Shown: positions 10,291-49,170 of the stretch, piece by piece
Numbering within the stretch: position 1 is the stretch's first letter
How the letters are laid out: every line of letters starts with the position of its first letter
Source of the DNA: Isoetes taiwanensis
Taxonomy: Eukaryota > Streptophyta > Lycopodiopsida > Isoetales > Isoetaceae
DNA length: 64,000 nucleotides
Assembly (NCBI GenBank): GCA_021234155.1
Contig: JAJEKV010000059.1
Coordinates: 2,312,182-2,376,181, forward strand
Direction: 5' to 3'
Program-made: the position numbers and the translations under genes
Notes under the pieces: generated by a model
Told to the model about the DNA's origin: nothing
Seen by the model: the letters and a program-made list of their open reading frames with translations, nothing else
Database searches by the model: none

Positions 10291-11905
10291 TGTGACGCTC
10301 CCCGAACCTATACGATGCTCCCGTCGTATAAATACGGGAAATCCCCTTCCCATGGTGCTCCATCACCACAGAAAAGGCCCTCCGTCTATCTCGGACCACT
10401 CGGGATGGTCGAGTATCCGGATGAAGGACACGGAGGTGTCATTCATCCCACGCCTTCTATGGGAATCCTATAGAGCGGAAGCGTACATACATGTTAGCAC
10501 CAAGCACATATCATAACAATAATATACCACCACGAAGGGTGGCCCATCTATCATCCAAGGCAATAACTAAACAATAACATACAAATAAACACTTTATACC
10601 CATCCATAGCTCTACCCTGGGCTCAGACACAAGGGAATCAACTGACGGCTCGGCCTCAAGATAACAACAGACGGAGTCATAACAATGGCGTTGGCTGGCA
10701 TAAGACAATGGCTAGGGTAGTCCACACCATCCGCCCCTCCTGTGCACACTTTGCAGATAGGCTGAATCGAGCTCTGGAATGACTATAGCCTTCCGAGGAC
10801 GCAATCTCATGGAATCACCCTATGAGACTACTCCGGCTTGCATCTCACCGGCTCGTTGAGGCAGGTCAGGGACAAGTCCCCTCCCCGGATCATCATGGCT
10901 ACATGGGTGTGCTAGAGAGTAGTGCCGCATCAGCGACCCCCTACTCGTACCCAACTTAACCCCCCAAAATCCACAGGTCACCTCAGTGCCCCTGTCGAGT
11001 GTCAAACAGCCTTTTCGGGGCCCGATTGCACACCCAGGAGGTGTCGGTCCCATACCCGGCCCACACTCAGTGACCGACTATAAGACTAGCACACTGTAGG
11101 AACCCCAGTACCCGCGGTCAGCAAGGTTCCACCCCCGTTTCACCATGAAGTCCGTTATATGGTGCTAAGTCACTCCATAGCCCCCACAGCCAGGTGGGCT
11201 CTTGTGCACAGGCCGCAACTAATAGGATCTAAGGGGTTCTAGCTAGGAGCATACTAATCTAATGGCTTTTAGGTCTCTACCCCCCTTAAGCCCTTAGTCC
11301 TACAGAGGAACTGATGAATACTACCACACATCACAACATAGAATCCAAGATCATCTTCTATGAACATAAAGTAGAGTCTAAACATCCATCTGATCAAAGA
11401 AGGGTCAGATCACCCAAAGACTCTCTAGACTAGCTAGGACAAGTAGAAACCATCAAGTCTGACCTGTGTCCTGGCTCGAATCATTCAGTACATCCATCAT
11501 GTTGAAGGTCAAGCGGGGTCAACTGGGTAGGTCGGGTCAACCCAAGTCAAGGCGGGTCAACTGCTGGTCAAAGGCGGGTCAACGGCTGCTCAAGGCGGGT
11601 CAACTTCCTAGGAGTTGGGCGCTAGACTCCTCTATGCAGATATAAGCTCAAAGGGAAGCCTAAATCACCATCCTCCTGCCAAAATAGCAGTTGATAGGTG
11701 ACCAATGGACCTGAGCTAGGTGTCAGGCCTTAATTAGGGTTTTAATCCTAAAACCCTATCCTTAGCTAATTGAATAACATTCCACTAGCTAACATAGACA
11801 ATTTACCCCCATTATGGTTTATTAATACATCAAATGTACTCCTACTTGTACGGTGACGTGTCACATTATTTGTACGTATTGCGTATAAATACGTGGAACG
11901 TCACA
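10291..11905 (-). repeat. 3' LTR of the chromovirus
   Basis: It has the same length as the partner LTR at 18071-19685, offset by 7780 bp. The one difference I noticed is a tract of about ten bases near 10983-10992 that is rearranged relative to the partner near 18763-18772. Short open frames inside are duplicated in both LTRs and are not genes. Confidence 0.93.
11507..11603 (-). promoter_or_regulatory. W-box cluster in LTR (3' copy)
   Basis: Eight TTGAC[C/T] cores on the element's sense strand lie within 97 bp, mostly as repeats of GTTGACCCGCC. This is the WRKY-factor binding core. The cluster lies about 300-400 bp into the LTR, consistent with U3. Confidence 0.6.
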
Positions 11906-11919
11906 TTCTACCCTCCTTA
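11906..11919 (-). other. Polypurine tract of the chromovirus
   Basis: On the minus strand AAGGAGGGTAGA directly abuts the 3' LTR, the expected primer for plus-strand DNA synthesis. A 19-base T run (12278-12296) lies between it and the end of the gag-pol frame. Confidence 0.75.
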
Positions 11920-18070: not shown

Positions 18071-19685
18071 TGTGACGCTCCCCGAACCTATACGATGCTC
18101 CCGTCGTATAAATACGGGAAATCCCCTTCCCATGGTGCTCCATCACCACAGAAAAGGCCCTCCGTCTATCTCGGACCACTCGGGATGGTCGAGTATCCGG
18201 ATGAAGGACACGGAGGTGTCATTCATCCCACGCCTTCTATGGGAATCCTATAGAGCGGAAGCGTACATACATGTTAGCACCAAGCACATATCATAACAAT
18301 AATATACCACCACGAAGGGTGGCCCATCTATCATCCAAGGCAATAACTAAACAATAACATACAAATAAACACTTTATACCCATCCATAGCTCTACCCTGG
18401 GCTCAGACACAAGGGAATCAACTGACGGCTCGGCCTCAAGATAACAACAGACGGAGTCATAACAATGGCGTTGGCTGGCATAAGACAATGGCTAGGGTAG
18501 TCCACACCATCCGCCCCTCCTGTGCACACTTTGCAGATAGGCTGAATCGAGCTCTGGAATGACTATAGCCTTCCGAGGACGCAATCTCATGGAATCACCC
18601 TATGAGACTACTCCGGCTTGCATCTCACCGGCTCGTTGAGGCAGGTCAGGGACAAGTCCCCTCCCCGGATCATCATGGCTACATGGGTGTGCTAGAGAGT
18701 AGTGCCGCATCAGCGACCCCCTACTCGTACCCAACTTAACCCCCCAAAATCCACAGGTCACCTTGCCCCTCCTGTCGAGTGTCAAACAGCCTTTTCGGGG
18801 CCCGATTGCACACCCAGGAGGTGTCGGTCCCATACCCGGCCCACACTCAGTGACCGACTATAAGACTAGCACACTGTAGGAACCCCAGTACCCGCGGTCA
18901 GCAAGGTTCCACCCCCGTTTCACCATGAAGTCCGTTATATGGTGCTAAGTCACTCCATAGCCCCCACAGCCAGGTGGGCTCTTGTGCACAGGCCGCAACT
19001 AATAGGATCTAAGGGGTTCTAGCTAGGAGCATACTAATCTAATGGCTTTTAGGTCTCTACCCCCCTTAAGCCCTTAGTCCTACAGAGGAACTGATGAATA
19101 CTACCACACATCACAACATAGAATCCAAGATCATCTTCTATGAACATAAAGTAGAGTCTAAACATCCATCTGATCAAAGAAGGGTCAGATCACCCAAAGA
19201 CTCTCTAGACTAGCTAGGACAAGTAGAAACCATCAAGTCTGACCTGTGTCCTGGCTCGAATCATTCAGTACATCCATCATGTTGAAGGTCAAGCGGGGTC
19301 AACTGGGTAGGTCGGGTCAACCCAAGTCAAGGCGGGTCAACTGCTGGTCAAAGGCGGGTCAACGGCTGCTCAAGGCGGGTCAACTTCCTAGGAGTTGGGC
19401 GCTAGACTCCTCTATGCAGATATAAGCTCAAAGGGAAGCCTAAATCACCATCCTCCTGCCAAAATAGCAGTTGATAGGTGACCAATGGACCTGAGCTAGG
19501 TGTCAGGCCTTAATTAGGGTTTTAATCCTAAAACCCTATCCTTAGCTAATTGAATAACATTCCACTAGCTAACATAGACAATTTACCCCCATTATGGTTT
19601 ATTAATACATCAAATGTACTCCTACTTGTACGGTGACGTGTCACATTATTTGTACGTATTGCGTATAAATACGTGGAACGTCACA
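18071..19685 (-). repeat. 5' LTR of the chromovirus
   Basis: This is the LTR upstream of gag. It begins CGTCACA/TGTGACG in mirror fashion to its partner and contains the same W-box array at 19287-19383, so transcription from here would be under that array. Confidence 0.93.
19287..19383 (-). promoter_or_regulatory. W-box cluster in LTR (5' copy)
   Basis: This is identical to the array at 11507-11603: eight TTGAC[C/T] cores in 97 bp, about 300 bp inside the 5' LTR. As the copy upstream of gag-pol it is the one that would control the element. Confidence 0.6.
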
Positions 19686-19690
19686 TTTGC

Positions 19691-22621: not shown

Positions 22622-23068
22622 TGTAACGTTCCTAACCGACATGCCCTTAACCAACTGGGCAAAACCGTCTAGACGTTTATGAGTAGTCGCTTCTACCCAT
22701 TTATGCCGGTGTCTCGGGAACATACACCAAGATCAACTCGAGCGGTCTGCCATGGGCCTGTTACAATCTCTCCCACTAGAACCATGCTCGTCCTCGAGCA
22801 TCAAAGACTACTGTGGACACAACCACACCGTACTTCCCCTCACGGCGGAATTACGTGTCATATGACATCCAAGTCATATTTGCCCCCATGGAGACTCGAA
22901 CTCGAGCCCTGCTCTGATACCAAATGTAACGTTCCTAACCGACATGCCCTTAACCAACTGGGCAAAACCGTCTAGACGTTTATGAGTAGTCGCTTCTACC
23001 CATTTATGCCGGTGTCTCGGGAACATACACCAAGATCAACTCGAGCGGTCTGCCATGGGCCTGTTACA
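22622..23068 (-). mobile_element. TRIM (miniature LTR retrotransposon), 447 bp
   Basis: Two 144-bp terminal repeats (22622-22765 and 22925-23068), which look identical by eye, start TGTAACG and end CTGTTACA and are flanked by TTTTT on both sides. Beside the right repeat the sense strand reads TGGTATCAGAGC, the initiator tRNA-Met primer site (22911-22922), so the element runs on the minus strand. A purine tract adjoins the left repeat. It has no coding capacity and must be moved by another element's proteins. Confidence 0.92.
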
Positions 23069-25691: not shown

Positions 25692-27710
25692 ATGGCCGCT
25701 ACTTCAAAGAACACAACTCTTCAGGCTACTGAGCCCATGGATCCCGCGCAGTTCGAGGACATCAAGTTCGTCTCCTCGTCTGCTCAAGTTCCGACATCAG
25801 GTCACAACTTTGATCTTTTGGTACTGTAGGATTGCTTCCTTTTCTGCAGAAGGAACTCCCGGCTCCGAATACAAAAAAGTTACAGCAATTTGTTGCTCAT
25901 CTGGTCAAAACAGATGATGGATTTGTCTCCAAGGTCGATGGAAACCCTATCCATCTTACTCCTGCACACTTAGCCTCTGCTTTTTCACTTCCAAATTTGC
26001 CCAACCCCATGTCCTACACAGACATTGGAAAATTTGATATCACTGAGTATTGTTCTATCCCATATAATGCTGCCCAAACCAAGCTCTCCACTTTTCCAAA
26101 AGAGCATGACATTTTCCCCAAATTCCTTTGGCGAAAATTTTTGGGGTATTCCATGAAAAATACCTCCATTAATGATGTTTTCTATCATCTGTATTATATT
26201 GTCACCAAAACCACTCGCCATATTGATTGGACCCAACTTCTCTATCAAAGATTCATGCAGGAACTTGATAGGCTCCGAAAAAATCCAGGCACAAACTCTG
26301 AATGTCCCATGGGAGCACATTTCCAGACCTTGATCAACCATCAAACCCAACTCCAAATAGTACCTTCTTCTCCACCAAGCACACATCCTGATCTCATTGA
26401 TGCAATGAAGGGTATTATCCCATCACCTCCTCATTCTCAGCATGCACAGTCTCGCAATCCGACTCAAGACCGAAATCCTTCTCAGCCTCCATCTCCACCC
26501 CCTGAAAATCCACTTCCACTTGTCCCTGTTCCACCAGTTGACACCCAAGTAACCAAGCAGCAACAAGTTAACCAGATCACTCTGGTACAGCAACCTCTTC
26601 CTCAAGTTCACAAACAACAGCAGCAGCCCATTGATCTCACGAGCACGCACAAGGATCACCACGGCCACGACCAAGGGTCTGTCAACAAGGGAGAATGTGC
26701 AGGTGCCCTTCAACCAGTACATACCGTGGACACTTATCACGATGCCTTTCTCAGTTCTCTTGATACACTTCGTGAACATCATCAGAACTTCATGACTGCG
26801 GTCACGGTAAAAAATGAATCAGTGGACCAACTCCAAGCAGAAGTCACCAAGTTGAAGGCCGACTTGGCCGCCTGTGAGGCCAGAGAAGAAGCCTTATTCG
26901 TCCAGCTCACGACCACCAGAGATACACTTCAAGACTCCACGCAGATAGTCAAGGAACTCAAGGAGTCCCTTCAAAAAGCTGATGACAAGTATTTTGAGTT
27001 AGAGCTCCGCCACAACAATTTTACATCAACGCATACCACGGCTCTTTCTGAGAACATCACCCTCAGAACTCAGAACCTGACACTAGAGTCTCAGGTAAAG
27101 AACTTGCAGACCTCTTTGCAGAACAAGGATGCTCACATCGCATCTCTCCAACTCAAGTTGGACCAGCTCACGCGAAGCAGGTAGCTGATGCTGCCGAAAT
27201 GGCTGCTCTAAGGAAAGATTTGGAAGCCACTCCGACATCCAGTTCTACTGATCCTCAACAGACCAGGCAAGTCCGACACCTCACAAGGAAAGTTGCAGAA
27301 TAGCAAGCCTCCATTGCGGCACAAAAGGATTCTCTGGAAGACCATAAGCTGCGTGCACAACTAGCTGAGCAACAAGCTGGCGAAGCTGAAGACCGTGCCG
27401 AACGAAACTATGAGCTCGCCTGTGCAATTCCTCAAGATTATCATAAGCCCGCTGGCTATTATGATTATGTGCAAGCTAGGAAAACTCTTTTCCTTCTCTC
27501 TTGGCTTTGACTGAAGGGTGATATCACCAATCCCCTAACTGCTGCTGATATTGAGAGGATTTGGCCTCTAATGGAAGTTCAAGAGAAAGGCACGCTTTGT
27601 GCCTTAGTCAGTCTCCAACTCATACAGGTTGCAGATACAGATCATTTTACTCTCAGAACAGTAGCCCCCATGGCTTATGTTATGCATGAAGCACAATTTC
27701 ATTATAATGA
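25692..27710 (+). pseudogene. Extra ORF of the Tat-like element, N-terminal part, broken
   Basis: An ATG at 25692 opens a frame (MAATSKNTT..) that loses phase near 25825 and continues from about 25830. A region of about 150 residues (HLTPAHLASAF .. WRKFLGYSMKN .. FYHLYYIV) resembles in pattern the plant-transposon protein of Athila/Ogre extra ORFs. A Pro/Gln-rich linker and a long coiled coil (about 26760-27180) follow. Breaks: a shift near 25825, a shift near 27170, TAG at 27301 and TGA at 27508. The frame then runs into the 10.1-kb insertion and resumes at 37793. A 25-base A run (about 25573-25597) precedes it. The function of these ORFs is unknown. Confidence 0.7.
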
Positions 27711-27781
27711 GAAATTTAGCGATTCTCATTTTGCACGAAAACGTTGAAAGACACATTTATGCCCTATATTTTACTGAAATG

Positions 27782-27841
27782 TGGCGCCATTTGATGAGGA
27801 ACACCTATGAATTTGGCATGGTATTAAGTGTGGCGCCATTT
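27782..27841. repeat. Left subterminal half-palindromes
   Basis: Two copies of TGGCGCCATTTGA (27782 and 27831) sit in a direct repeat of about 49 bp just inside the left end and downstream of the minus-strand gene. They are half sites of the palindrome family in this element. Confidence 0.75.
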
Positions 27842-28023
27842 GAAGAGCACCTATGACTTTGGCATGGTATTAAGTACGTATAAAATATAACTTAAGAAAA
27901 CTAATCGTAAATGAACAGAGAAGTATTAAGTGGACAAAATTTTACATCATGTAGTATTAAACAATGATTTTAATGTACACAATTTAACAGTCAATTTCAA
28001 TATTCAAACAGTCAATTCAATAT

Positions 28024-31000
28024 TCAATCAATTGGATCATCCCCTGCACCACCTCCCTGACTGCCCCCTTGAGCAGACGATCCTGCCCCTGGAGTAAAAG
28101 TATCAAAGTCCCCAACATTAAAATTTGGGTCGTTCAAGTCGTCAAGATTGAACTTGGCAGTCTTGATAGCTTCCATATCCACATCAGGAGGCATTTTCGG
28201 ATCAGGTGGCGTCTGAGGGGCCTGCTGACCTGATTGTTCCACATGGACAGGAGCATCTTTTTCTGTGACTGGAACTGCAGCTATAACTGGAAACACCAAA
28301 CGTTCTATCCTAGCCAGGATCCCAGACACACATTCTTTCTTGTTCCTGTCTGATTCAAAGACCACACAAAATCTTTTTTCACTCAAAGCTGCCCGACAAA
28401 AAGAACCACAGGTAAAGTAGTCCAAAATTCCAGTTCCGGGTGGAACTAGTTTCTGCACAATATAAGAACATGCAGCAGGTCCCAGCTGGCTTCTCATCAT
28501 TACGTCCCCAGGTAAGCCTTGCCAGCTGTATCTAAACCTGCTATGCATCAGTTTCTCGCACATTTTTTCACTTTCACCGTCTGCCGCCTCCTCATTGTAA
28601 GGTGGAATAGCTGGTTTTTCCTGAGGATGTGAGGCGAAGCAGAACTTGAGATCAAGTGCCTCTACAGGATCACCTCCACTGGGTTGGATTTTCGTGGCAT
28701 AGACCAGTGCATGAGGTTCAGAGATACCTGAGGTTGAAGGATTGTTGAAAACATCCTCGTAGACTCCTATGAAAACTCTTGATCGGGAGTCCAGGTTATC
28801 CAACACCGAAGAAACAAGGAAGTTATCGTGCGGCCTTGCAAAGCACACTATCCAGAAGGATTTAGCTGTAGTGTTCTTCACTGCCGTGTTGAAGAAATTT
28901 GTCAGTGTATCCTTGTCCCACATAGGACTTATAGCCCTAAGATCGACAGCAATCAAGGATACAGGCAGTGGTGCAATAACAACTTGGCCCCTGCTATCTG
29001 TCAGCTCCACTTCAAAACGGAACTCTTCAGTTTCATCTCTTGCCAAGATCGTGTTCCGTATCAGCTTTGCTAGAGCAGATGGCATGTTGCCATAGGTTCC
29101 TTCCCTGCTAATTCCCTCAGTAACCCACTTATTATGCACAGTGCCTATGGTGGCTAAACTCTTGTCATCGAACCCGGGGAATTTCTTGCTGAAGTCTTCG
29201 AAAGAATTAAACTTCCTTGGGTGATTCTCACTAATGTATTCAAAAATTTCTTTCTTCAAAAATGCTAGAGTTCGAAGTGCCATTGCCCTCTTCTTAAAGA
29301 AATTATCACCTGTATAATCAGAGGTGACCTTCACAAAGGTCTTGCCATCCAATCTTCGTATTCCATTCCCCTCATGCACCTCAGAAAAGTTTGACTAAAG
29401 TAGTCATGATCCTTGGCCCAATTGCACGTGATTATCTGGCCCTTGTTGTCTTTAAGCTGGCTATCTTTCCACAATCTCCAGAAGGACAAGAACATCTGAA
29501 AAATGTCTTCCGGCATAAAAACCCAGCTGTTGAAGTCCTTGGGAGCCTTGTTGCGCATGATCACCGAGGCTAAGTTAATATATCGCTGAAAGTGAATGCA
29601 GAAGTTAGTGCTGAACATGTAAAGAAATGAAAGTCAGCATCGAATGACTTTGCCAAATGGCGCTACGGCGCCATTTGGCAAAGTCAATCGATGGACCTAC
29701 TATAACTTAAAAGCATAAACGCAACTTACCTTATAGGATTCTGAGCGCGCCTGTCCCCGTCCTGTGGGCTCCGGCTTACCACATAAGGCGTACTGCTGCT
29801 TGAGATGTGTGACCTTATCAATGAATGGCTCTTTGAAAATAGTATTGGCAGCAGTCTCATTCACTTCAACACTGAGTTGCAGACATTCTTGCTCGCTAGC
29901 AGTGCCAGAGAGGACACGACAAGTCCGGAATCCGTAAATCTTTGACATTTGTTCCTGCGACTTCTCGGTTCCCAATGTTCTGCAAACAAGCTGAGCAGCC
30001 AAAACTGAGTGATTACCATTCACGATGTAGTAGTGGGCTCCCTTTAGATCCTCTTCACTTTTCCAAGCCAAGAGCTGCTTCGTGTTCTTATCAAATGGAA
30101 TCACTTCAGCTGGAGTAAACACAGGATGCGGATCATTCTGAAAAGATTGAATCAATGTTTTCACGTGTTCCATGTTTCTAGGCCTGGACGTCAAATTCGG
30201 TGGCCCTTGGAAGAGTCTGAACACGCTAATACTTTTTGTCCAAGTAATGCCCATAGGAAATAGATGGCGATGGTCAAAAATTTTTTGCAAAGTAATATCC
30301 GCCATCTTTTCCTCTTGAGATGCTTGCACCTTCAGAGAGTCAGCAGCTTCCAACAAGCTCGACTGGATCCTGAGTTTAATCTTTTCAGGAACTTTTTGCT
30401 TTTTTTCAGGAGCTGCGGGTGTTGTTGCCTCTGGAATTGCTGTGCTATGGGGTGGGCTAGCAGGAGGATTGTCCTCTTCTTCAGAACTTGGCTCTTGCCT
30501 GTCCCTGCTTGGTTCTGGTATAGCAGGGCCGGTTTTTGATGCTCTAAATTTCTGTCTTTTCCGAACTTTCTCTCCGTCCTTCCCCTTCTTCCCGTCCTTC
30601 CCGTCCTTCCTTTTCTGTGGTTTCTCTCCGTCCTTCCCCTGCCCTTCCACAGGTCCCTTTTGTTTTTTAGGGTTCTTCCCGCCATCACCGCCATCATTTC
30701 GTGGATTTTTCTTTCCCACCTTTGGTTCCTCTTTTTTCTCTCCATTCTTTCCTGCTTCAGTCTCAGAAGATGAGTCTCTTGGCTGATCAACTGCTTTTGG
30801 TTGTTTCTTCTTAGTAACAGAACGCAGCCAGGCAGTGTCAATAATCGGAGGAGCCTTCTGCGAGGTGATTGCCTTCACAACAAGAGACACAGGGTTTTTG
30901 TGCTCGTTCAAACGGCCGCGAAGAATGTTATAGCCACGCAAGATTTCCTGTGTCCCTTTAATATCTGCTTCTTCAAAGCTTTTGTAAGACGGCAGTGCCC

Positions 31001-32474
31001 ATCCCGTCTTCCTAGCAGAACCTCCCAGATTTTTAATGCTGGCCGCCATGAGAGTCGGATCGTAGAACTGCCAATCTACATAATACACGAGTATTTGCAA
31101 CTTGCGCGTGTCCTCGACCACAACTCTAAGCCAATCATCGCGATCATTCTTAGACGCTTGTCTCATGGAAACAATGATACCAGACTGATAAACTCCACTG
31201 ACATCTGCTTCTTTGATCAAGAGGCATAACTCTCTTCTGGTATCTCCCTTTGAGCCAGAAGGCTCGGGCGGGCTTATACGATTTACTTCCATGGCCCAAT
31301 ATCTGTTGTTCATAGTTATGGCCTTCTCAGCTTGAAATTGTGTTTCCTCGCGAAGCACAGCTGGTATAAAACATCATTAGTAAAAACGTGGCAAATTAAT
31401 AACAAGCACCCAAAGATATTCTAAAACTCGACAAATGGCGCCGTGTCGCCATTTTACCTACCAGTGCACCTTTACAGGTCGAACTTTAAAACAAATGGCG
31501 CGGTGGCGCCATTTACATGCTAGTGCACCTTTCTAGGTAGAACTTATAAACAAACGCAGAGAGGCTTCTTCCAAAGTTTGCTACTCCCTCCATCAAATAA
31601 TTTGAAGAAGGGTGCGGCAAACAAAGAAAGAAGCCTCTCTGCTTTACAGCAAGTTCCACATGCAAAAGGTCCACCACCATGTAAATGGCGCCATCGCGCC
31701 ATTTGTTATAAAGTTCAACCTGTAAAGGTAAACTCCTATGCAAATAGCGCCACGGCGCCATTTGCGCTTCTAATGTAATTCACACAGGCACCCAAAGATA
31801 TTCTAAAACTCGACAAATGGCGCCGTGGCGCTATTTCACCTACCAGTGCACCTTTACAGGTCAAACTTCAAAACAAATGGCGCGGTGGCGCCATTTACAT
31901 GCTAGTGCACCTATCTGGGTAGAACTTCTACACATGCAGAGAGGCTTCTTCCAGAGCTTGCTACATCCTTCATCAAATACTTTGAAGAAGGTTTGCAAAA
32001 AGTGCACAAGCATGTAAATGGCGCCACCGCGCCATTTCATTTAAAGTTCGACCTGTAAAGGTGCACTGGTAGGTAAATGGCGCCGCGGCGCCATTTGTCG
32101 AGTTTTAGGATATCTTTGGGTGCCTGTGTGATTTACATTAGACGCGCAAATGGCGCCGCGGCGCTATTTAAATAGCAAGGACATCAAGACAGCATACTAC
32201 ACAAATGGCGCCGTGGCGCCATTTAGAAAGAATCACCTAGACAAAATTAACTTATTCAAGCAAATGGCGCGGTGGCGCCATTTGCAGTAAACAATCCATA
32301 AAACCATAACTCTACCGAATAGCGCGATGGCGCCATTTAAAACTGCTGACCATATGCAAGAAAGCAAAATTTAATCTATATCTGACAAATGGCGCCGTGG
32401 CGCCATTTCGTTGGGGACATACCTTGTGGCTGAGCTGCTGGAGTGTCCACTCCTCGAGAATCAGCACCCTCCAT
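28024..32474 (-). CDS. ParB-like plus beta-class DNA methyltransferase-like protein, three exons
   Basis: Exon 1 (32474-32423) starts MEGADSRGVDT. Intron 1 (32422-31361) is GTATGT..CCAG. Exon 2 (31360-29730) and exon 3 (29585-28024) flank a GTAAGT..TTCAG intron, and all junctions keep phase. Exon 2 has an unrecognised N-terminal domain, a Lys/Gly/Glu-rich linker and a ParB/sulfiredoxin-like fold (RPRNMEHVKTLIQSF.. then IVNGNHSVLAAQLV near 30010). Exon 3 resembles a beta-class amino-methyltransferase: a motif-IV-like region (AVDLRAISPMW) and a SAM-site-like C-terminal motif (ILDYFTCGSFCRAAL..CVVFESD). DPPW/DPPY is expected at motif IV but DLRA is present, so methylation activity is doubtful. 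One single-base loss in a T run near 29389 breaks exon 3. The predicted size is about 1080 aa. The role, perhaps site-specific DNA binding, is inferred. Confidence 0.72.
29646..29685. repeat. Extended palindrome in intron 2
   Basis: GACTTTGCCAAATGGCGC and its exact reverse complement are separated by TACG, giving 18-bp perfect arms. The inner part is the AAATGGCGCC family core. It lies inside intron 2 (29729-29586) of the ParB-like gene. Confidence 0.9.
31406..32131. repeat. Two tandem, diverged long inverted repeats
   Basis: About 31406-31787 and 31789-32131 are diverged copies of one unit, and each unit is itself an inverted repeat. The outer arms carry CACCCAAAGATATTCTAAAA and its complement, the inner arms carry CCAGTGCACCTTTACAGGT and its complement, and the loops share GCAGAGAGGCTTCTTCC. 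Each arm contains two of the palindromes. The whole block is inside intron 1 of the ParB-like gene and could fold into two long hairpins. Confidence 0.85.
31433..32408. repeat. Array of 13 palindromes (AAATGGCGCC-N2-GGCGCCATTT)
   Basis: Copies start at 31433, 31493, 31683, 31742, 31815, 31875, 32016, 32075, 32148, 32203, 32262, 32317 and 32387. Spacings are mostly 55-60 or 70-73 bp, with two larger gaps (190 and 141 bp) at the loops of the long hairpins. Several are perfect (for example 32075), others have one or two changes, and the surrounding sequence is much less conserved. Conservation of the palindromes against diverged spacers suggests selection for a dimeric protein-binding site. The array fills intron 1 of the ParB-like gene. 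Confidence 0.9.
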
Positions 32475-33056
32475 GTTGCGCGCCTTCGATTCCGGTCAAA
32501 AACAAAGGGGGTTTTACAGGTCGGTTAGGCGCTGGCAGTAGGGGCAAATGGAGCGTTTGCGGGCAAAAAAAGAGTGCGCGGAAGGGGTAGCAAAGGCGCT
32601 AGGCGCTAGGCGCTGGCGGCTGAGAGCGAGGCGCTGGCGGCTGAGAGCGAGAGAAGAAAGAATGAGCGCCCAGAAAGAGAGGTGGCGCCATTTCAGGCGG
32701 GCGGGTGGCGGGCGGGCGGGCGGGCGGGCGGGCGGCGGCCTGGCGGGTGGCGCTTCGTGCAGGCGGGCGCTTCGGACGGGCGGCGCTGCGTGCTGGCGGG
32801 CGGGCCCTGATTTGAAATCCCGCCAGAATTTGGAAGGCCAAATTTGAAATGCCCGCCCGCCCGCCCAAAATTGAAACGCCCGCCCATATTTGAAACGCCC
32901 GCCTAAAAAAAACCAAAATTTGAAAAGCCCGCCCGCCCGCCCAAATTTGAAACGCCCGCCCGCCCAAATTTGAAACGCCCGCCCATGTTTGAATTATTTT
33001 AAATTTATTTGACCTTTAAATACACGTCCTTGTCACTGTCTGCATTTAAGGCGACA
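32475..33056. promoter_or_regulatory. Divergent GC-rich promoter region with G-runs and C-runs
   Basis: This lies between the ParB-like exon 1 (minus) and the Arg-rich ORF (plus). A half-palindrome is at 32683-32693. From 32697 to about 32735 the plus strand has repeated GGGC runs able to form a G-quadruplex. From 32845 to 32990 come repeats of GCCCGCCCGCCCAAATTTGAAAC that can pair back with the G tract. A TATA-like TTTAAATA (33015-33022) precedes the Arg-rich ORF. The open frames in this low-complexity tract are artefacts of base composition. Confidence 0.6.
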
Positions 33057-33251
33057 ATGGCTCGACGCAGACGTCTGCGTATAAGATTCAGGCGATTCCG
33101 TATTCGTCTTGTTGTTGCAGCTGCAAGACGCATAAGGCGCGCGGCATTGTTCAGGCGCTTTGCAAGAAATTTTCAGAGGCGCATGCACGCGATCAGGCGC
33201 TTCCTTCTTGGCGCTCGCAGATATCGTTGGCCCAGCTCTAGGGAAATTTAG
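33057..33251 (+). CDS. Arginine-rich small basic protein, 64 aa
   Basis: The frame starts MARRRRLRIRF and has 25 Arg in 64 residues, no Lys and one acidic residue, with interspersed hydrophobic residues that suggest basic amphipathic helices. The ATG context ACAATGGC is close to the plant optimum, and a TATA-like box lies about 35 bp upstream. Arg is written with CGA, CGC, CGT, AGA and AGG, which argues against a simple repeat. I know no matching family. By composition it could be a protamine-like or other nucleic-acid-binding protein, which is inference. Position between the two large gene blocks suggests it belongs to the element. Confidence 0.55.
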   Translation: MARRRRLRIRFRRFRIRLVVAAARRIRRAALFRRFARNFQRRMHAIRRFLLGARRYRWPSSREI

Positions 33252-33424
33252 TTGTAGCAGATTTCTGAGGGGCGACTAAGCGACTAGCAGAAGGCGCTTG
33301 CTAATTTTCCTGCATTTTTGTGCATTTCTTCCATGGATCTCTCAAAAATCAAGTAAGCCCAGCTTTTTTACTTGTGTAACATCTCGATAACTTGATATCA
33401 TATTAATGAAGCAAAAATAAAGCC

Positions 33425-33625
33425 ATGTATGCCTTATCAGACTGTTCTGTAATGTTCTCTTAATGATTTTCAGTTATGTATGCCTTATTAGACTGTTCTG
33501 TATTGTTCTTTTATCATTTTCAGTTATGTATGCCTTATTAGGCTGTTCTGTATTGTTCTTTTATCATTTTCAGTGGTGTATGCCTTATTAGGCTGTTCTG
33601 TATTGTTCTTTTATCATTTTAACAG
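33425..33625 (+). repeat. Four tandem 50-bp units ending in splice-acceptor-like sequence
   Basis: Each unit runs ATGTATGCCTTATTAG..CTGTTCTGTATTG.. and ends TTCTTTTATCATTTTCAG (the last unit has AACAG). Every unit therefore carries a polypyrimidine tract plus AG on the plus strand, upstream of the DUF7869-type gene. Confidence 0.8.
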
Positions 33626-33659
33626 TTATAGTGCACTTTTGGATCGAAATAATGTAACC

Positions 33660-33793
33660 CAGCTCAGTCCGGTAAAACTTCCACGAGGTGCCCTTGTTGT
33701 GCATACCTGCTCCTATTGGTCCGAGCATACCAATACGAGCAAGAATGCACAACATAGGCACCTCGTGGATGTTAACCTTGCTGAACTGAGCTG
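33660..33793. repeat. Imperfect hairpin of about 134 bp
   Basis: Arms 33660-33711 and 33736-33793 pair through CAGCTCAG/CTGAGCTG, CCACGAGGTGCC/GGCACCTCGTGG and TTGTTGTGCAT/ATGCACAACAT with a few bulges. A more degenerate partial copy follows near 33870. It could be a fold-back relic, a binding structure or a hairpin RNA. Confidence 0.75.
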
Positions 33794-33977
33794 CATTTTA
33801 GATCCATCTTTTCATTCAATTTTGCATCTACATAATGCTACACAGCTGTCTAGTTAATTGACTCGGGGTTCCCGTAATGTGCATACCTTCACTTTCTCGT
33901 CCGATCACAACATTCAAGTAGAATACCACTTCCTGACCCCACTTGCAAATCTTGTCCAAAACTAACCAGACGCTCTG

Positions 33978-34053
33978 GAATGGCGCCACGGCGCCATTTC
34001 AGCCCGAGATAGTACTTTTGAGACTGAAATATGTATATTAAATGGCGCCATTT
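33978..34053. repeat. Two palindromes upstream of the DUF7869-type gene
   Basis: A full-length family member lies at 33978-33999 and a contracted perfect AAATGGCGCCATTT at 34040-34053. Both are in sequence that would be intronic or 5' flanking to the exon starting near 34120. Confidence 0.85.
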
Positions 34054-34119
34054 TTGATCAAATTTGTGACATTTTCTTGATATTTATATGTACTGAGGAG
34101 AGGTCTTTCCTTCGTGCAG

Positions 34120-37100
34120 ATTCAACTTTCCCGTATACTGCCTGTTCGTTGGAAACACACTAGTTGCTAGGGCCCATATTTACAAGAGAAACATTCTTCA
34201 TGGGAAGGATGTAGATCCTTCGAATGTAGCAGTGGAGGTTATAGAGGCCGTGGTTCCATCAGCTGAACTCCCAGTACCATGCAGAGGTGCAGACAACGTT
34301 GGTGAAGCAGTCGGCACACTTATTGAATGGCCAAGGGAGGATGTAAGATGGAGTGAGCGAATACCAAGTGATACGTCTTCCGGATCAATACCGAATTTGC
34401 CCTCTACTTCAGAAGAGGACTCATCTAGTAGCCCACCATCTGTCAACAGTGGCACACCATCTGTCTATACCCACTGTGAGGAACCACCGTCCGTCGCTAC
34501 TCAATATGGTGAACCGAGCAAGATGGTTGAAGAGGACGAGGTAGTAGTGGAGATTGGTGAACCACCTGTCACTACCCATAGTGAACCGAGCAAGATGGTT
34601 GAAGAGGACGAGGTAGTTGTGGAGATTGGACCTCATGACAACCTAGCCGACCTTCTTGGCCTCGAGTTGGTTGAGCCTGAAGTAGAGACAGTCAACTATT
34701 CTAGAACGGATCTACTTGGTTTACCGTGCTACATTCTTCACTCCTGCACTGGGGGTAAATATTCAGAGGCAAACATAGTGTTCAGTGATCCTCAAGATGC
34801 CATAGATGATGACTTGTTGGGTGTATCGAACGTTGGGCTTACGGTGGGTAAGATATTAGATCCAATTGGAAAAGAGAATGTGAGTTCTTGTCATGCATGT
34901 GCAGAGAGGCCTTCTGTTGCAACTCTAGTATGTTGGGAGAGCTCTGATGTTTTGCTTCTCGATGGTAGAACAGTTTCCCAGCATCTTCAGGCTCGAGCTG
35001 CTCTTGAACAGGATGAGGATGACTTAGAAGTCCAATGCCAGGAAGGTTTCATACAGGAGCAATTCAAGAGGAAAAGGAAGTATAATTACATAAATAGGCC
35101 CAGGAAAGAAAGAAGTGGCGATAGCAAGGAGGACAGGATGTGTTCTTCCGGATCCATCAAGAAAGCTCTTAAATCCACGTGCTGCAAGGAGGAATGCACT
35201 AAGAAATTCACACGAGAGCAAGTACGTGCCTTAAGAAAAGAATTTTATTCTCAATCAAGCAGTGCAAGGATTACGCTTATTTTTGACGTGTTGAGTGTAA
35301 CTTATACAGGGCACTCGGAGGGGAAAGTAGTAGTACTTGGAGTGGAATGCTGTCAACTTGCATGGCGCTTGGCTTTAGGAATTGCTCAGGCCACATTCTA
35401 TAGGTGGAGGAGGAGGTTCGAGTTAGGTGGAAAAAGAGCTGAGCATGGTAACACAGGCTCTAAGAAGCCTCGATCGGTTACACTAGCTACAGAGAGTGTG
35501 CTTGATACCTTCATTAATGAGAACGCAGAGAGCATTCCACATAGAAGTAAGAGAGGAAAGGATGATATAAGGGAGAATGTTCGCAAACTTCCTTCTATCC
35601 TTAACAAGAAGAGCATACACAAGGAAGTGGGTGCCGTGGTGGAAGAGCTGACAGGAAAAAATGTAACGTTGCCTTCTTTCTACAATATTTGGAAAAAAGA
35701 GTTTCCAGATGTAGGCATAGCAAGGAATATAGCATTCTCCAAGTGTAACATATGCGTGGTAATTAAGCAGAAATTGGAACGAACAAAGGATACAAGGGAG
35801 AGACGCAACCTTTCAATTCAACGACGGTCTCATATGTTGGAACAAAGGTCATGTAGGAGTCAATACTGGCATTGGCGTGCTTTATCACATCGTTCGCCTG
35901 AAAGTCACCTTTGCATAATACATGACAAGATGGATCAGGTCAAAACACTCACACCAAGAAGTCATCATCTCGCTAAGTCCGTCTGGAGAGGAGATCGCTT
36001 AAAGAGTAGCTTGACAGGTGCACTAACACATGGTCATGGTTCAGGGGCTTATGGGCATTTCTCTCTTGACCTCTGGAAAGATGACTCAAACTTCCATGTT
36101 GGATCACTTAATAGAATCCTACACTATCTTGAGTTGCTGGATGAAGACAGATGTGGTGATCTATGTGGAAGCAAAACCACAGATTGCAAACTAATGCAAG
36201 CCGTAAAGGATACTCGACCACTGCATCATAAGCTAGCGCAGACACAAGAGGAGGTGCCCCGAAGTTGGGCACCCGCTTGGATCTTAGAACAAGGTTTCAA
36301 TCCACTTCCTCGAAATCTCTACTTGCAATTGGATAATGCACCTGGTCAAAATAAGAATAGATACGTGTTCTCCTATCTGTCTTATTTGACATGGCTAAAG
36401 GTGTTCGATGAGATCCAAGTTGGTTTCATGATGGTTGGGCACACTCATGACGATATTGATGCAATGTTTGGTAACTTCTCAACATTAATGAGTTCATCTG
36501 ATGCTCTAACTTTGCCTGAGTTGCTCTACTTTTTTAGCAAATGCAATGCAAAGTCTCCTGTTCCATACTTCGTAGACGAGGTTCCAGATTGGAAAAGTTT
36601 TGTGAAAGGATATATTCCAGACAAGGGCCAACGTCTGACAGGCCATACTGAGCCTTTACTGTTCCGATTTAAGATGGATGGAAAATGGCCCATTATGCAA
36701 TATAAGATGCGACCGACACATAAGGAGTGGATTCCAGAAAAAGGAATAAAAATGTGGAAGGAGGATGAAAATGGTGATCCAACATTGCCAATAGGGGTGC
36801 CTAAAAATATCCCTCCAGCCAAGACATTAAAAGATCTCCCTGGCCTGGCAGATAGCATCAACAAATACATAGCATTATGGAACTCCTTCTGCAAAGATCA
36901 AGAAGGTAGTGTGTTTGCACAACAGTACAAGGCAACTATGGATGATTGGACCGAGCTTCTGTCATGCTTGAAAGATGTCTCTCCAGGACGACCTCAAAAT
37001 GATAACTTTTGGTTGCGTACAAGGCAAGAACCTGTACAAGCTGCCTTTACTCCAGAGGTTGATGAAGCTGCCGTGGTCGCAAAAACTTTGCCTTCTTATT

Positions 37101-37507
37101 GTGGGCCGGCAGATGGGCGTCCAGTGTTGCCCATGGAAGAGTTCGATCCTCATGTACACGTCACGAAAGGTATGTTCGTTTTAGTTCGACCTGGAGACGA
37201 TGAAACTCCAACGTGGTTGGGCTATACGGAAGAAGATGCCATTCTGGATCCAGAGTCTACCAATTATGGTCATATTTATGTATCATGGTGGATGCCTGTT
37301 GGTCGTGACTATACTGGTTGCTTAACTAAGCGTTGGCGACCCAATCCATCAGATCCATCAAGGTATGAGAATTTAGATGCTATACATTATGCATGGGATG
37401 CAAATGGCAAAAGACCAAAGACTGTTCAGATTCCAAAATATATTGTTGACATGTGGGGGGACATAGCATCAGCTAAAGGCTCTCAATCTAATTCATGTTC
37501 TCGATAA
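34120..37507 (+). CDS. Large protein with DUF8039-like and DUF7869-like regions, partial 5'
   Basis: The frame is open from a good acceptor (CTTCGTGCAG at 34119), about 1128 codons, with no stop. Because no in-frame ATG lies near the start, at least one upstream exon is needed. The N-terminus (YCLFVGNTLVARAH .. LHGKDV .. LPVPC .. VGEAVGTLIEWP) has the pattern of DUF8039, a domain of plant transposon proteins. An acidic linker contains a tandem 66-bp repeat (EPSKMVEEDEVVVEIG twice). A helix-turn-helix-like stretch (ATFYRWRRRF) and a Cys pair (KCNICVVIK) follow. The core LQLDNAPGQNKNRY (near 36330) and VGHTHDDIDAMFG (near 36440) match DUF7869. Its Asp/His spacing suggests an RNase-H-like nuclease and hence a candidate transposase, but that is inference. 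Confidence 0.75.
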
Positions 37508-37658
37508 GTATATTTATATATACTTTTTCTTATGTGCTATCTTAGCATGTATATTGTATGACTATCATGTTCATGTATATGATAAGGTCTTCACTTATGT
37601 TTGGAAGTTGGTATATGATTACCATGTTAATAAGTTTTTGATATAATCATGTAGTGTA

Positions 37659-37750
37659 GACACGTGCTTACAACCCCCTGCAACAGGGGTACTGTACATG
37701 TGTATACAACCCCTGCCATAGGGGTACTGTACACGTGTATACAACCCTGC
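37659..37750. repeat. Right subterminal tandem repeats
   Basis: About 2.5 copies of a unit of roughly 40-45 bp are present: ACACGTGTATACAACCCC-TGC and then AGGGGTACTGT. Each unit holds a small inverted repeat, CCCCTG../..AGGGG. They lie just inside the right end of the 10.1-kb element and could serve as end-recognition sites. Confidence 0.7.
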
Positions 37751-37792
37751 AAAGCTCTACAATAAAAAAATTCTCAATTTTCAAATATTTTC

Positions 37793-39107
37793 TCATTATA
37801 ATGAAATTGTGCTTCATGATTTCTATCTGGCATATGTCACGAACGCACATGAGGATCGCACCATTGAGCATTTCCACGGGGATCTCACGAAGCAACTTCT
37901 GCTCCACAAAGAGAACCCGTATATCAAAGACACCAAATTTCTCCAGTCTGTGCAGGAAGAATATATGCCTATCCTGGAAAAAGAAGTTGATCTCTGGTTG
38001 GCAGAAATTCACACACTCCTTCACACTCTCTACAACTCAGATCAAGGACTTGAGCTTGCACAGGTATTCGTCCAGCATTATGCATCTCTGCACTGTTTGC
38101 ATGTTATGCTGAAAAACAAGGTCCTTCCTGAAGATTGGGACCCTGTACCTTTGACTTCCCTCCTCACTGCCAATGAGTGGGACACGGTGAGCAAACAGCT
38201 CCCTGAGAAGATTCTGCTCGAGTTCAAGGAACAACTCAAGGATAAACGGCACCAAACTCCACCAGAGGCAAGTGAACTTGCAAGATATGGAGCTCCCCCT
38301 TTGATAAAGGTCAACACTTCAGCGTGGCGACAAGCGTTCTGGAGTCCTGTACTCCGAGAACATGAAGCCTGGACGCCCACGGCCATTGCGCAAGACATCC
38401 GCTGGGACCCACGATTCATCCGAAGACGCAAGTGGCGTGCAGATGAAACTCTTGACAGGAACACCAACTGGATTTATATCCCCAATGCTTGCTCATGGAA
38501 AACAATACAGGATGCCACGGATGGTCTCACGGCTTTCATTGAACGAGCCAAGACTTCCCCAGATCCATCTGTATTTCGACAAGCAGGATTTTGTGCTGCC
38601 CTTATTGCTATCCTTCAAAGTGCCAAACAACGGAAAGTCCAGATACATTACTGCAATCCGAATGCCAGTGCTGGAAAGTTTGGCCTTGACTTAGTGTTGT
38701 TCATGGAACTCACGAGGCTTCCATCTGACATTCATGAAGCCCTTGAAGACATGATCTATGATGGATTCCTTATAAATGCAGCACAATGTTTGGCACAACG
38801 CACTCCAGAAGATCTTGCTCAAAGACGACAAATGATTGCAAAGTACAACGACGTACGTCTACCTCACGCGCGACTCTCTGACCAACAAACTTCCCCTAGT
38901 TTTCCACCTGCCGAGCTCGTGCCACCTTTCCTCCACAATAAGTGTAGTGTGGTGGGGGGGAGTGTTAGTCCTGTGCCTGGCGACAACACAGGACTATACA
39001 TCCTGTACTCAGGCACGCCACAAGGCGCCACGGCGACCAAGAAGAGGGATCCACCTGGTGCCACGGCGGGTCAGACCTCCTCAAAGAAGCAGAAGCCTAA
39101 CAGGTAG
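37793..39107 (+). pseudogene. Extra ORF of the Tat-like element, C-terminal part
   Basis: This continues the frame interrupted at 27710: after the shared TCATTATAATGA the reading frame is maintained and stays open for about 435 codons. Landmarks are LHDFYLAYVTNAHEDRT, a region rich in Glu/Leu, and WRQAFWSPVLREHEAW. No catalytic motif is recognised. The last codons run into the 3' LTR (from 38963), so the true end in an intact copy may differ. It is separated from its N-terminal half by 10 kb and cannot be expressed as one protein unless the insertion is removed. Confidence 0.7.
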
Positions 39108-46675: not shown

Positions 46676-49170
46676 TGTTAGCCTAAAACCTGGAATTTTA
46701 GCCTAACCTCAAAGGAAATGCAAACCAAGTGGTCAGGACCTCCAGATCACTTAGGGTGATCAATCCTTAACTATATGAAGCAAAAAAAAAAACTCAATTT
46801 GGAGTGCACATTTTCTCAAAATCACTACCATCCATGTAGCAGAAAAAACTGTCAGAGCAAAAATCAACCTAGCAGTCACACCCTTTAAGATTTTTGTGAT
46901 TTGTTTTTTGATATGGGTGATAAATCAGGAACAGAAACTACTGGTGAAAATTTGGCTTGATTTGGATAAGGGAAGATTGAGAAAGACAATGTCAAACTCG
47001 GGTCAATTTTTGGTCAATGCAAAAACAGAGAGCTCAAATTTACAGATGAAGTTTGGTGAGGAATTTTTGCTTGGGATTTGTGCAGACAATTTTAAAATGA
47101 GTCCAGGATCACGTCCATAAGATTTATATGGCAAGAGGATGACTGGATTTTTCTGAGAGTAATCAAGACTTCAAATATCAGTCAAGTTTTGTAACAGTCA
47201 TGAACAGGTGTACTCTTTTTGCATTTTTTCTGGATGTATAGACTTCTAGGATATTCCTGAGGATGAAGTATATTGGTTTGAATGAAATCTAACTGGAAGT
47301 AATGTCCTAACTTTGTATTTTAATTTTTTTCTTGGTGTTTTCTTTTCTGGCTTTTAACAGACAATACAAAACCTTACAGGATTTATGAAAAAATAACAAG
47401 AACCTTTCCAAGCAAAGAATATTTATGGTAGCAAAGTAATACAAGGAGTTCCAGGAGTTCCAGTGGTTCTGGAAGAAATTACCATATAGAAATACTCGAG
47501 ATTTTACTCTCAAGCAAATCTGAATGCAAGAAGCCAAATAAATACCCAAGGAGGGCAGAATGCAGATCAAATATGTAGAAATCTGAGTTCTTTTGATGTA
47601 GAACAGGTCGGTCTTCAGCAGATCAAGTCAATCTTCAGCAGGTCATCATTTTTAGACAAAAACAGAGCCGGGTTTTACAAATTCAGGTAATATAATAGAG
47701 GATAATCAGAATGCGCCAAGATCACAGAGTTTTTCTCTGAGGGGTCGTGATAAAATGATCTGTTCTTCTGAATTAAAAACTGTCAGTCCCAAAAACCAGC
47801 TCGGTTGAGTGATTTCCGGCTTAATTTGAGCAAATTTCCTTAGATCAAGTGCCACAGAGGGTTCCAGAGGTTTCGGAAAAGGTTCAGGAGATGATTTCGG
47901 GAGCAAAAGGGCGGGATTCAATCAGATTTTGGCACGAATTTGCCAGATTTAGCATTATCCCAGTTTTAGGGTTTACAGAAAAATTCTGAAGCTCGAAATA
48001 TCCCACAGGCAAGAACCAGTCTGGGAGACTAAGGCATATAAGGAAAAGGCCAGCGTGGCATTTCGAAAATGCGTGCCACGCAGAGGGGTTGTGCCAGCTC
48101 GTGTTCTGGAGGCCCTGCCCTGCTGCCACGTGGAAATGGGGGGGGCTGAGGTGGAAAGAGTGGATAGGGTAGATAGGCTAAAATAGGTTTTTTTTTTTTT
48201 TTTTTATTTCTTTGCACGCATCCCAAGAAATGAAATTTGAGAGGCTTCCCAAGGTCTTTTTTGGATTTTTAAAAGGCCAGCATAGCTTATTTTTTCCAAG
48301 CTTCAATTCTGGAGTGTTTTCAGATCAAGCTGAAATACTTGAAATTTTGGCCCTTTTGACCATGGCCAATGAATTTTCAAACTTGGAAATGATGAAAAAA
48401 TCATAGGAAAAAAATGGAAAAATGGTGAAAATAGGCTATGGTAGGGTTTATGAGGATAGGATGAAGGTAAAAACCAAGCTTATTTGCTCTTAAGGTTTTT
48501 CAAGATCTTTTGAGAGCAATTCAAAAGTGGAGGTGAGATCAATAAAAATATGTGTAGTAAAATGGTGAAAATAGCATCAAAGTGAAAGAATTGATGGAAA
48601 GAGGCCTTTTGAGGGTTTTTTGAGTATGAATGGGAAGATATGGAATGAATGGAGTGGAAAAGGATGGAAACCCCTGTAGCACATGATCTTATCTCAGATT
48701 GCTCAAAAGCTCAAATCATACCTTATAGTGAAAATAGCTTTGCTCAAGCCTAAAGGTCTTCCAATCTTCCAAAAAAGGTCTTCCAATCTTCAAGGCCAAA
48801 ATAAGAGCAATTTTCACTTCCAAAGTGACATCCTCACATGTGTGACCATTGATGCAACTCAATCAAGCCCATATAAGTGAATTTGGCAAAATGCTTTGTA
48901 ATTCCTTGTATACTTGCTATATCCTTTGCCTGGTCTTCAAATCAGAAGAAAAATGCTTAAACAGATGAATATAAGTTTTAGAAAATTTCTTTACCTCAAG
49001 GAAAAAACTAGGCTATTTTTGGAGATCCCTGATGTCTTCCAAACTTGGTCAAATGTCTTCCAAACTCTAATGGGATCACAATAACCTAGAATTTGTCCTT
49101 AGAGGAAATATGAATAATCAAAAGGTCCAATGCAAAGATGTTGTCCTTATGTTGCCCAAAATGGGCAACA
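46676..49170 (-). repeat. 3' LTR of the 16.8-kb element, 2495 bp
   Basis: This is collinear with 61037-63524 apart from small differences, for example near 46825, 47455, 47620, 47785 and 48115. The sense-strand start is a small hairpin (TGTTGCCC..GGGCAACA, 49150-49170). Short frames within it are duplicated in the partner LTR and are not genes. Confidence 0.9.

Follow-up and report, generated by a model that had tools for sequence, protein, structure and literature searches.

A bounded 10.1-kb mobile element in Isoetes taiwanensis lies at the centre of a perfect palindrome and carries a private palindrome family

Results

Organization of the element and its empty site

The window analysed here is a 64-kb stretch of the Isoetes taiwanensis genome (contig JAJEKV010000059.1, positions 2,312,182 to 2,376,181). 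At positions 27711–37792 of this window lies a 10.1-kb insertion whose excision brings the two parts of an open host reading frame back together, with a single copy of a 12-bp repeat, TCATTATAATGA, left at the junction. The element carries a plus-strand gene for a DUF7869 protein that is a likely transposase, a minus-strand gene for a candidate ParB-like protein, a small Arg-rich open reading frame (ORF) and a palindrome family of its own. When the two host flanks are rejoined, the insertion site becomes a 40-bp perfect palindrome, CATGAAGCACAATTTCATTATAATGAAATTGTGCTTCATG, interrupted by the element exactly at its centre, a feature that the first-pass annotation of this DNA had overlooked. The element was seen as one copy, and its gene models were predicted from sequence alone. 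The features are listed below, with the target-site duplication abbreviated TSD and the terminal inverted repeat TIR.

27711–37792: whole element, 12-bp duplication reading
27707–37796: whole element, 4-bp TSD reading, 10,090 bp
27699–27710: left copy of TCATTATAATGA; its central TATA (27703–27706) is the 4-bp TSD alternative
37793–37804: right copy of TCATTATAATGA; TATA at 37797–37800
27685–27714: left arm of a 30-nt perfect inverted repeat, made of the host arm CATGAAGCACAATT, TCATTATAATGA and GAAA
37789–37818: right arm of the 30-nt perfect inverted repeat; the joined empty site is the 40-bp perfect palindrome
27707–27714, plus strand: TIR ATGAGAAA, 4-bp TSD reading
37789–37796, minus strand: TIR TTTCTCAT, 4-bp TSD reading
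27780–27875, plus strand: two tandem subterminal units of about 46 bp, with one GGCGCCATTT half-site each (27783, 27832)
28024–29585, minus strand: predicted exon 3 of the ParB-like gene; C-terminal stretch weakly methyltransferase-like
29586–29729, minus strand: predicted intron 2 of the ParB-like gene; one palindrome, arms extended to 19 nt (29645–29686)
29730–31360, minus strand: predicted exon 2 of the ParB-like gene; its last 209 aa (29730–30356) are the ParB-like stretch with VNGNHSVLAAQ
31361–32422, minus strand: predicted intron 1 of the ParB-like gene, with a long hairpin at 31736–32175 and 13 of the 15 palindromes
32423–32474, minus strand: predicted exon 1 of the ParB-like gene, beginning with the ATG at 32474; prediction only
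33057–33251, plus strand: Arg-rich ORF, 64 aa with 25 Arg, upstream of the transposase start
33333–33352, plus strand: predicted exon 1 of the DUF7869 gene
33353–34119, plus strand: predicted intron of the DUF7869 gene, containing a tandem array of 50-bp units, an inverted repeat of 45 nt, the palindrome at 33978 and the compact AAATGGCGCCATTT at 34040
34120–37507, plus strand: predicted exon 2 of the DUF7869 gene (candidate transposase), with candidate acidic motifs HDKMD, LDNAPGQNKN and GHTHDDID

TCATTATAATGA occurs exactly twice in the window, once at each insertion end, and after excision the host frame stays open for 500 codons across the junction, down to a stop at 39107, so that the bounded insertion with a 12-bp flanking repeat and a restored host frame described at first pass is upheld. 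The host is an extra ORF beside Gypsy-type retrotransposon sequence, and it is itself damaged upstream of the insertion by a frame change near 27184 and by in-frame stops. Because the rejoined site is palindromic and the insertion central, the 12-bp repeat can equally be read as a 4-bp TATA duplication next to an 8-bp TIR. This ambiguity arises since the target site is symmetric and its ATGA also starts the element end, and every even duplication length from 2 to 12 is formally compatible with the ends. A 12-bp duplication leaves a terminal repeat of just 4 bp (GAAA), and a 4-bp duplication gives the perfect 8-bp repeat ATGAGAAA/TTTCTCAT. We favour the latter, because the ends then look normal and the duplication falls in the loop of the target.

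The palindrome at the insertion site stands apart from its surroundings. In the empty-site window its 20-nt arms are the longest perfect arms found with loops of 0 to 8, and just one further site has arms of at least 12 nt (14 nt). Order-1 Markov sequences of the same length had a longest arm of 8 to 12 nt in 100 of 100 cases, as against 20 at the insertion site. Folded as single-stranded DNA, the site forms an 18-bp stem with a TATA loop. The palindrome presumably predates the insertion, and would have been chosen as its target.

A palindrome family confined to the element

Fifteen matches to AAATGGCGCNNNNGCGCCATTT with at most three mismatches occur in the window, all of them inside the element (chance mean 0.01), which bears out the earlier description of at least 15 palindromes private to it. 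The half-site GGCGCCATTT, with at most one mismatch, lies inside the element in 34 of 35 cases, including one between the genes at 32684 besides the two in the subterminal units. Palindromes of other sequence are not confined in this way: among non-overlapping perfect palindromes with arms of at least 9 nt and loops up to 8, 10 of 20 are inside. All fifteen family members fall in predicted introns: the minus-strand gene has 13 in intron 1 and one in intron 2, and the plus-strand intron has one, together with the compact form AAATGGCGCCATTT. The pentamer GGCGC reaches 37.7 per kb in intron 1 and 20.6 between the genes, compared with 1.2 over 28024–31360 (intron 2 included) and 0.3 over 34120–37507. 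Nine of the fifteen palindromes have flanks in common through local duplication and six share the same 22-bp core between unrelated flanks, so the family occupies seven independent contexts.

Several of these copies sit in larger structures. The stretch 31736–32175 of intron 1 is one long nested inverted repeat that gives a near-continuous hairpin of about 210 bp on the transcript strand of the gene, with a folding energy of -332.2 kcal/mol (z=-35.8; 0 of 100 shuffles as low). Differences between its arms show no preference over the whole hairpin (six G-U vs five A-C), and in the inner arm pair 31835–31910/32002–32077 they number three G-U vs no A-C (p=0.25). A 56-bp near-perfect palindrome (29638–29693), whose inner arms are perfect over 19 nt, encloses the palindrome of intron 2. 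The predicted transposase intron contains a 50-bp tandem unit in four copies (33425–33629), followed by the 45-nt inverted repeat at 33676–33773.

The exact palindrome had 0 matches in viral_contigs. In genome_contigs it was found in 26 prokaryotic stretches, for which a relation was rejected since the flanks are unrelated; 21 of the 26 belong to one multicopy repeat of Propioniciclava soli with long palindromic flanks of its own, and the remaining five have A/T runs at their ends and are terminator-like. The P. soli loci (L021–L026, L028–L033, L035–L039 and L041–L044), in which a multicopy long palindrome contains the same 22-bp core, look like a family of the repetitive extragenic palindrome (REP) type, and the sharing of the core is probably a coincidence.

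A plus-strand DUF7869 gene and a small Arg-rich ORF

The plus-strand gene starts at the ATG at 33333 and, with its predicted intron removed (AA/GTAAGC ... GTGCAG/AT), encodes 1135 aa with no internal stop; splicing supplies the in-frame start. The PF25273 (DUF7869) profile matches at E=3.6e-41 with 141.3 bits against a curated cut-off of 26, best at residues 690–828 of the unspliced ORF. No DUF8039 match was found in the protein at E up to 1, and of the DUF8039/DUF7869 assignment made at first pass the DUF7869 half is the one that stands. On the strength of the PF25273 domain, what had been called a possible transposase is a plausible one, and we refer to it as a likely transposase. Pfam also gave sub-threshold helix-turn-helix matches, one of them at residues 381–415, where NCBIfam gave an IS630 transposase match (E=0.08, far below cut-off). 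Three candidate catalytic acidic motifs, HDKMD, LDNAPGQNKN and GHTHDDID, may form a DDD triad. The protein had 0 matches among solved structures, its single-sequence structure model (predicted local distance difference test, pLDDT, 32) was not used, and no paper was found for the term DUF7869 in the literature searched.

Between the divergent genes, 32475–33000 consists of simple repeats very rich in GGCG/CGCC, possibly a shared promoter region. Downstream of it the very basic 64-aa protein reported earlier is indeed encoded at 33057–33251. Its ORF is the sole one in the window that starts with ATG, spans at least 50 aa and contains at least 27% Arg. Markov sequences of its 300-nt region produced an ORF of at least 60 aa in 310 of 5000 cases and at least 35% Arg in 0 of 5000. 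Together with a start context, GACAATGGC, which we take to be plant-like, these figures suggest that the ORF may be real.

A minus-strand gene with weak ParB similarity

The minus-strand gene has three predicted exons (32474–32423, 31360–29730 and 29585–28024) separated by GT-AG introns. Exon 3 contains a single reading-frame change near 29380, which may reflect an error of assembly, an intron that went unrecognised or a true frame break in this copy. The question posed of the protein was ParB plus METHYLTRANSFERASE, and the reference was L006, a phage protein that Pfam matches to both ParB_N and N6_N4_Mtase. Twelve loci were picked by hand among the matches listed for L006 (40 of 452 phage records and 30 of 126 plasmid records). 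Alignment A1 comprises 12 of the 13 loci, L019 being omitted for having no annotated gene, and both Pfam domains were checked in L006 only.

For the minus-strand protein, no ParB match was found in Pfam, NCBIfam or PHROGs. The only pertinent library match was phrog_3008 'DNA methyltransferase', on the C-terminal stretch of exon 3 (E=0.23; 0.12 for the trimmed region). The hidden Markov model (HMM) score of the ParB region was equalled by 95 of 2000 shuffles, and its glocal profile score against 12 bacterial and phage proteins (z=2.0) was reached by 6 of 200; for comparison, z was 4.25 for the related L007, outside A1, and 1.44 for L002, a protein without a Pfam ParB match. The HMM alignment placed VNGNHSVLAAQ on the IIAGHGR-type motif. 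For exon 3, 56 of 2000 shuffles reached the HMM score. In hhalign the C-terminal motif, within the stretch that phrog_3008 also matched, aligned with the FGGSG region (probability 1.8%, P=0.028). Full-length methyltransferase similarity in the glocal test came to z=0.38, a value reached by 67 of 200 shuffles, with controls at z=21.2 (YhdJ), 3.15 (PrmA, a methyltransferase of another kind) and 1.22 (DusB). The catalytic motif of N6/N4 DNA methyltransferases has the form [DNS]PP[YFW]; at the candidate places for this motif and the FGGSG-type motif the protein reads SPMW and DYFTCGS, and DPPY and GSG are invariant in A1.

The order of regions is like that of the bacterial and phage fusions of ParB_N with N6_N4_Mtase, and VNGNHSVLAAQ and the C-terminal stretch align with motifs of such fusions, whereas the scores are near the shuffled background and the A1-invariant DPPY and GSG are absent. 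Taken together, the shuffle, hhalign and glocal results make the ParB-like domain a weak candidate and the methyltransferase reading of exon 3 a lead only; if the protein is a methyltransferase, its usual motifs would be altered. The ParB half of the ParB/methyltransferase-like gene named at first pass is weakly sustained, and exon 3, though weighed as a possible methyltransferase, is not claimed to be one. Among other candidates for exon 2, Chi1 was rejected (two solved-structure chains at E=0.72 and 0.8), and a PHROGs tail-fibre match (phrog_366, E=2.7e-6) on a Gly/Lys-rich stretch was dismissed as composition. Weak matches to HTH_Tnp_Mu_2 (E=0.1) and T1RH-like_C (E=0.19) were also seen in this exon.

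Surroundings of the element

Judged by its content, the window looks like plant repeat-rich DNA. Reading of its ORFs labels a Helitron-like group at 4248–8960, helicase-like and apparently split into several frames, besides Gypsy-type ORFs and a Copia-like gag ORF. Direct repeats at 10291–11907 and 18071–19687, 99.7% identical around a Gypsy-type ORF, are probably those of a young long terminal repeat (LTR) retrotransposon, and a second pair, 97.8% identical, lies at 46676–49170 and 61037–63524. A 144-bp stretch is repeated with 100% identity at 22622–22765 and 22925–23068, and parts of this region have relatives at 44.4–45.0 kb. Rfam and tRNA scans gave nothing at their thresholds.

Discussion

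A transposon bearing a ParB-like gene is not new. According to Dinatale et al. 2025 (PMC12477816), the Ectocarpus element Sola1-1_Ec32 has a ParB-like and methyltransferase accessory gene on the strand opposite its transposase, and green and red algal cases of such genes are cited there, one source being the Bostrychia genome paper. To call the present element an undescribed mobile system, as the first-pass annotation did, was therefore too strong; we see in it a variant of a transposon type already known, with two features of interest, the palindromic site and the private palindromes. Its minus-strand gene, too, lies within the transposon and opposite the DUF7869 gene, the layout of the ParB-methyltransferase accessory class. 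The other source for the algal cases is said to be the 2011 work of Iyer, Abhiman and Aravind. As far as the passages of PMC12477816 drawn on here go, both are large DNA transposons with a ParB-like accessory gene opposite the transposase, and the accessory proteins have similar lengths (1104 aa there, about 1080 aa here from the predicted exon coordinates). They differ in size (21.5 kb there, 10.1 kb here) and in the methyltransferase domain, recognised there and weakly suggested here, and the word stem 'palindrom' is absent from the main text of that paper.

The match with the published Sola1 element in gene layout, and in layout only, points to a possible Sola-like affiliation. Sola transposases were reportedly described by Bao and colleagues in 2009 as being of the DDD type. 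The passages drawn on here give 4-bp AT-rich target duplications for Sola2 (PMC3627910) and list Sola1 for the moss Physcomitrella (PMC9033089); the former are compatible with the TATA reading, and other even lengths from 2 to 12 fit the ends equally. KolobokP (PMC9587614, in the part used here) is another DNA transposon of eukaryotes that has gained a DNA-binding accessory protein, and a semi-palindromic site was proposed for that protein; KolobokP differs in its Kolobok transposase, its long terminal direct repeats and the lack of a strong target preference reported there.

On balance, the probable explanation for the whole locus is a DNA transposon of the cut-and-paste type with a DUF7869 transposase, a ParB-like accessory gene of the class reported for Sola1, a palindromic target, and intronic GGCGC sites for an element-encoded protein. 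The transposase would bind the symmetric target as a dimer and join the element ends across the central TATA, producing a 4-bp duplication beside 8-bp terminal repeats, which the ATGA/TCAT of the target would make resemble a 12-bp duplication. The ParB-like protein would be an accessory protein transcribed opposite the transposase, and the intronic GGCGC palindromes would serve as DNA sites of a protein that the element encodes. The simplest candidate is the ParB-like protein itself, whose role would be to mark the DNA of its own element or to regulate it.

Several results weigh against this explanation. The element is a single copy with short terminal repeats. The ParB similarity is marginal by the shuffle tests, hhalign of the whole ParB-like exon left the ParB region unaligned, and the full-length methyltransferase comparison was negative. 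Both single-sequence structure models (pLDDT 35 and 32) were unusable. Relatives were not confirmed in the collections searched: in viral_contigs, pattern stretches numbered 0 for the DUF7869 protein, 20 for its core and 5 for the ParB-like exon, none confirmed; the 12 pattern stretches for DUF7869 in genome_contigs were likewise unconfirmed; and tblastn against phages gave two records for exon 3 (best E=3) and six for the ParB-like tail (best E=0.4), all taken as chance.

Among the alternatives, it is quite possible, if short of an even chance, that the palindrome family goes back to a small palindrome able to spread or duplicate itself, which accumulated in introns as the parts under least constraint, mostly through local inverted duplications, and is no protein-binding array. 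Introns would tolerate any insertion, the nine copies with duplicated flanks fit such a history, and so does the single long inverted repeat at 31736–32175 with its extreme folding score. Passive accumulation accounts less readily for the six copies that keep the 22-bp core between unrelated flanks, for the half-sites in the subterminal repeats and between the genes, or for GGCGC densities that are high both in intron 1 and between the genes and low in the gene blocks. Because it nevertheless explains much of the array, we hold the proposal that the palindromes are sites of the ParB-like protein to be less likely than not.

It is rather unlikely that the element belongs to an unnamed superfamily of DUF7869 transposons unrelated to Sola, with a true 12-bp duplication and a minus-strand gene of some kind other than ParB or methyltransferase. 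In line with this account, the two copies of the 12-bp direct repeat match exactly and the minus-strand protein receives no confident name from any library, yet the terminal repeat then shrinks from 8 bp to 4 bp, and the gene layout, by itself, matches the published Sola1 case. We also think it unlikely that the 40-bp palindrome was not a target and arose at or after insertion, by the copying of one flank onto the other. A single observed insertion leaves room for such an origin; against it, the host frame runs open through both arms to 39107, and the arms abut the TCATTATAATGA repeat exactly on both sides. That intron 1 acts as RNA, its long inverted repeat yielding double-stranded RNA that regulates or silences the element, seems improbable: the near-continuous hairpin on the transcript strand, with no shuffle as low, and the 3 to 0 excess of G-U over A-C in the inner arms (p=0.25) speak for it, but the whole hairpin lacks a G-U preference and the isolated palindromes in other contexts go unexplained.

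The element may be read further, as a eukaryotic transposon that targets cruciform-forming palindromes and joins at the four unpaired loop bases, and whose ParB-like protein, with a centromere-like array of palindromes in the element's introns, marks and protects the element's own DNA; as a whole, we hold this to be improbable. Target palindromes have been considered before. That of the P element is reportedly a short, loose consensus, a description that sets it apart from the one 40-bp perfect site here. A model of a palindromic target site for the P element is already in print, to go by the title of a reference, and literature searches on palindromic targets, covering titles and abstract openings, returned none describing such a case as the present one. 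If it is kept in other copies, insertion right in the middle of a long perfect palindrome would offer a way to test in eukaryotes whether targets are chosen by their structure. The private palindromes bear on a second question. For accessory genes of the ParB-methyltransferase type, binding and modification of the transposon that carries them has been suggested, with no binding site named in the passages of PMC12477816 drawn on here, and the family described here, which would matter if it too is kept in other copies, offers a concrete candidate binding site for a ParB-type accessory protein.

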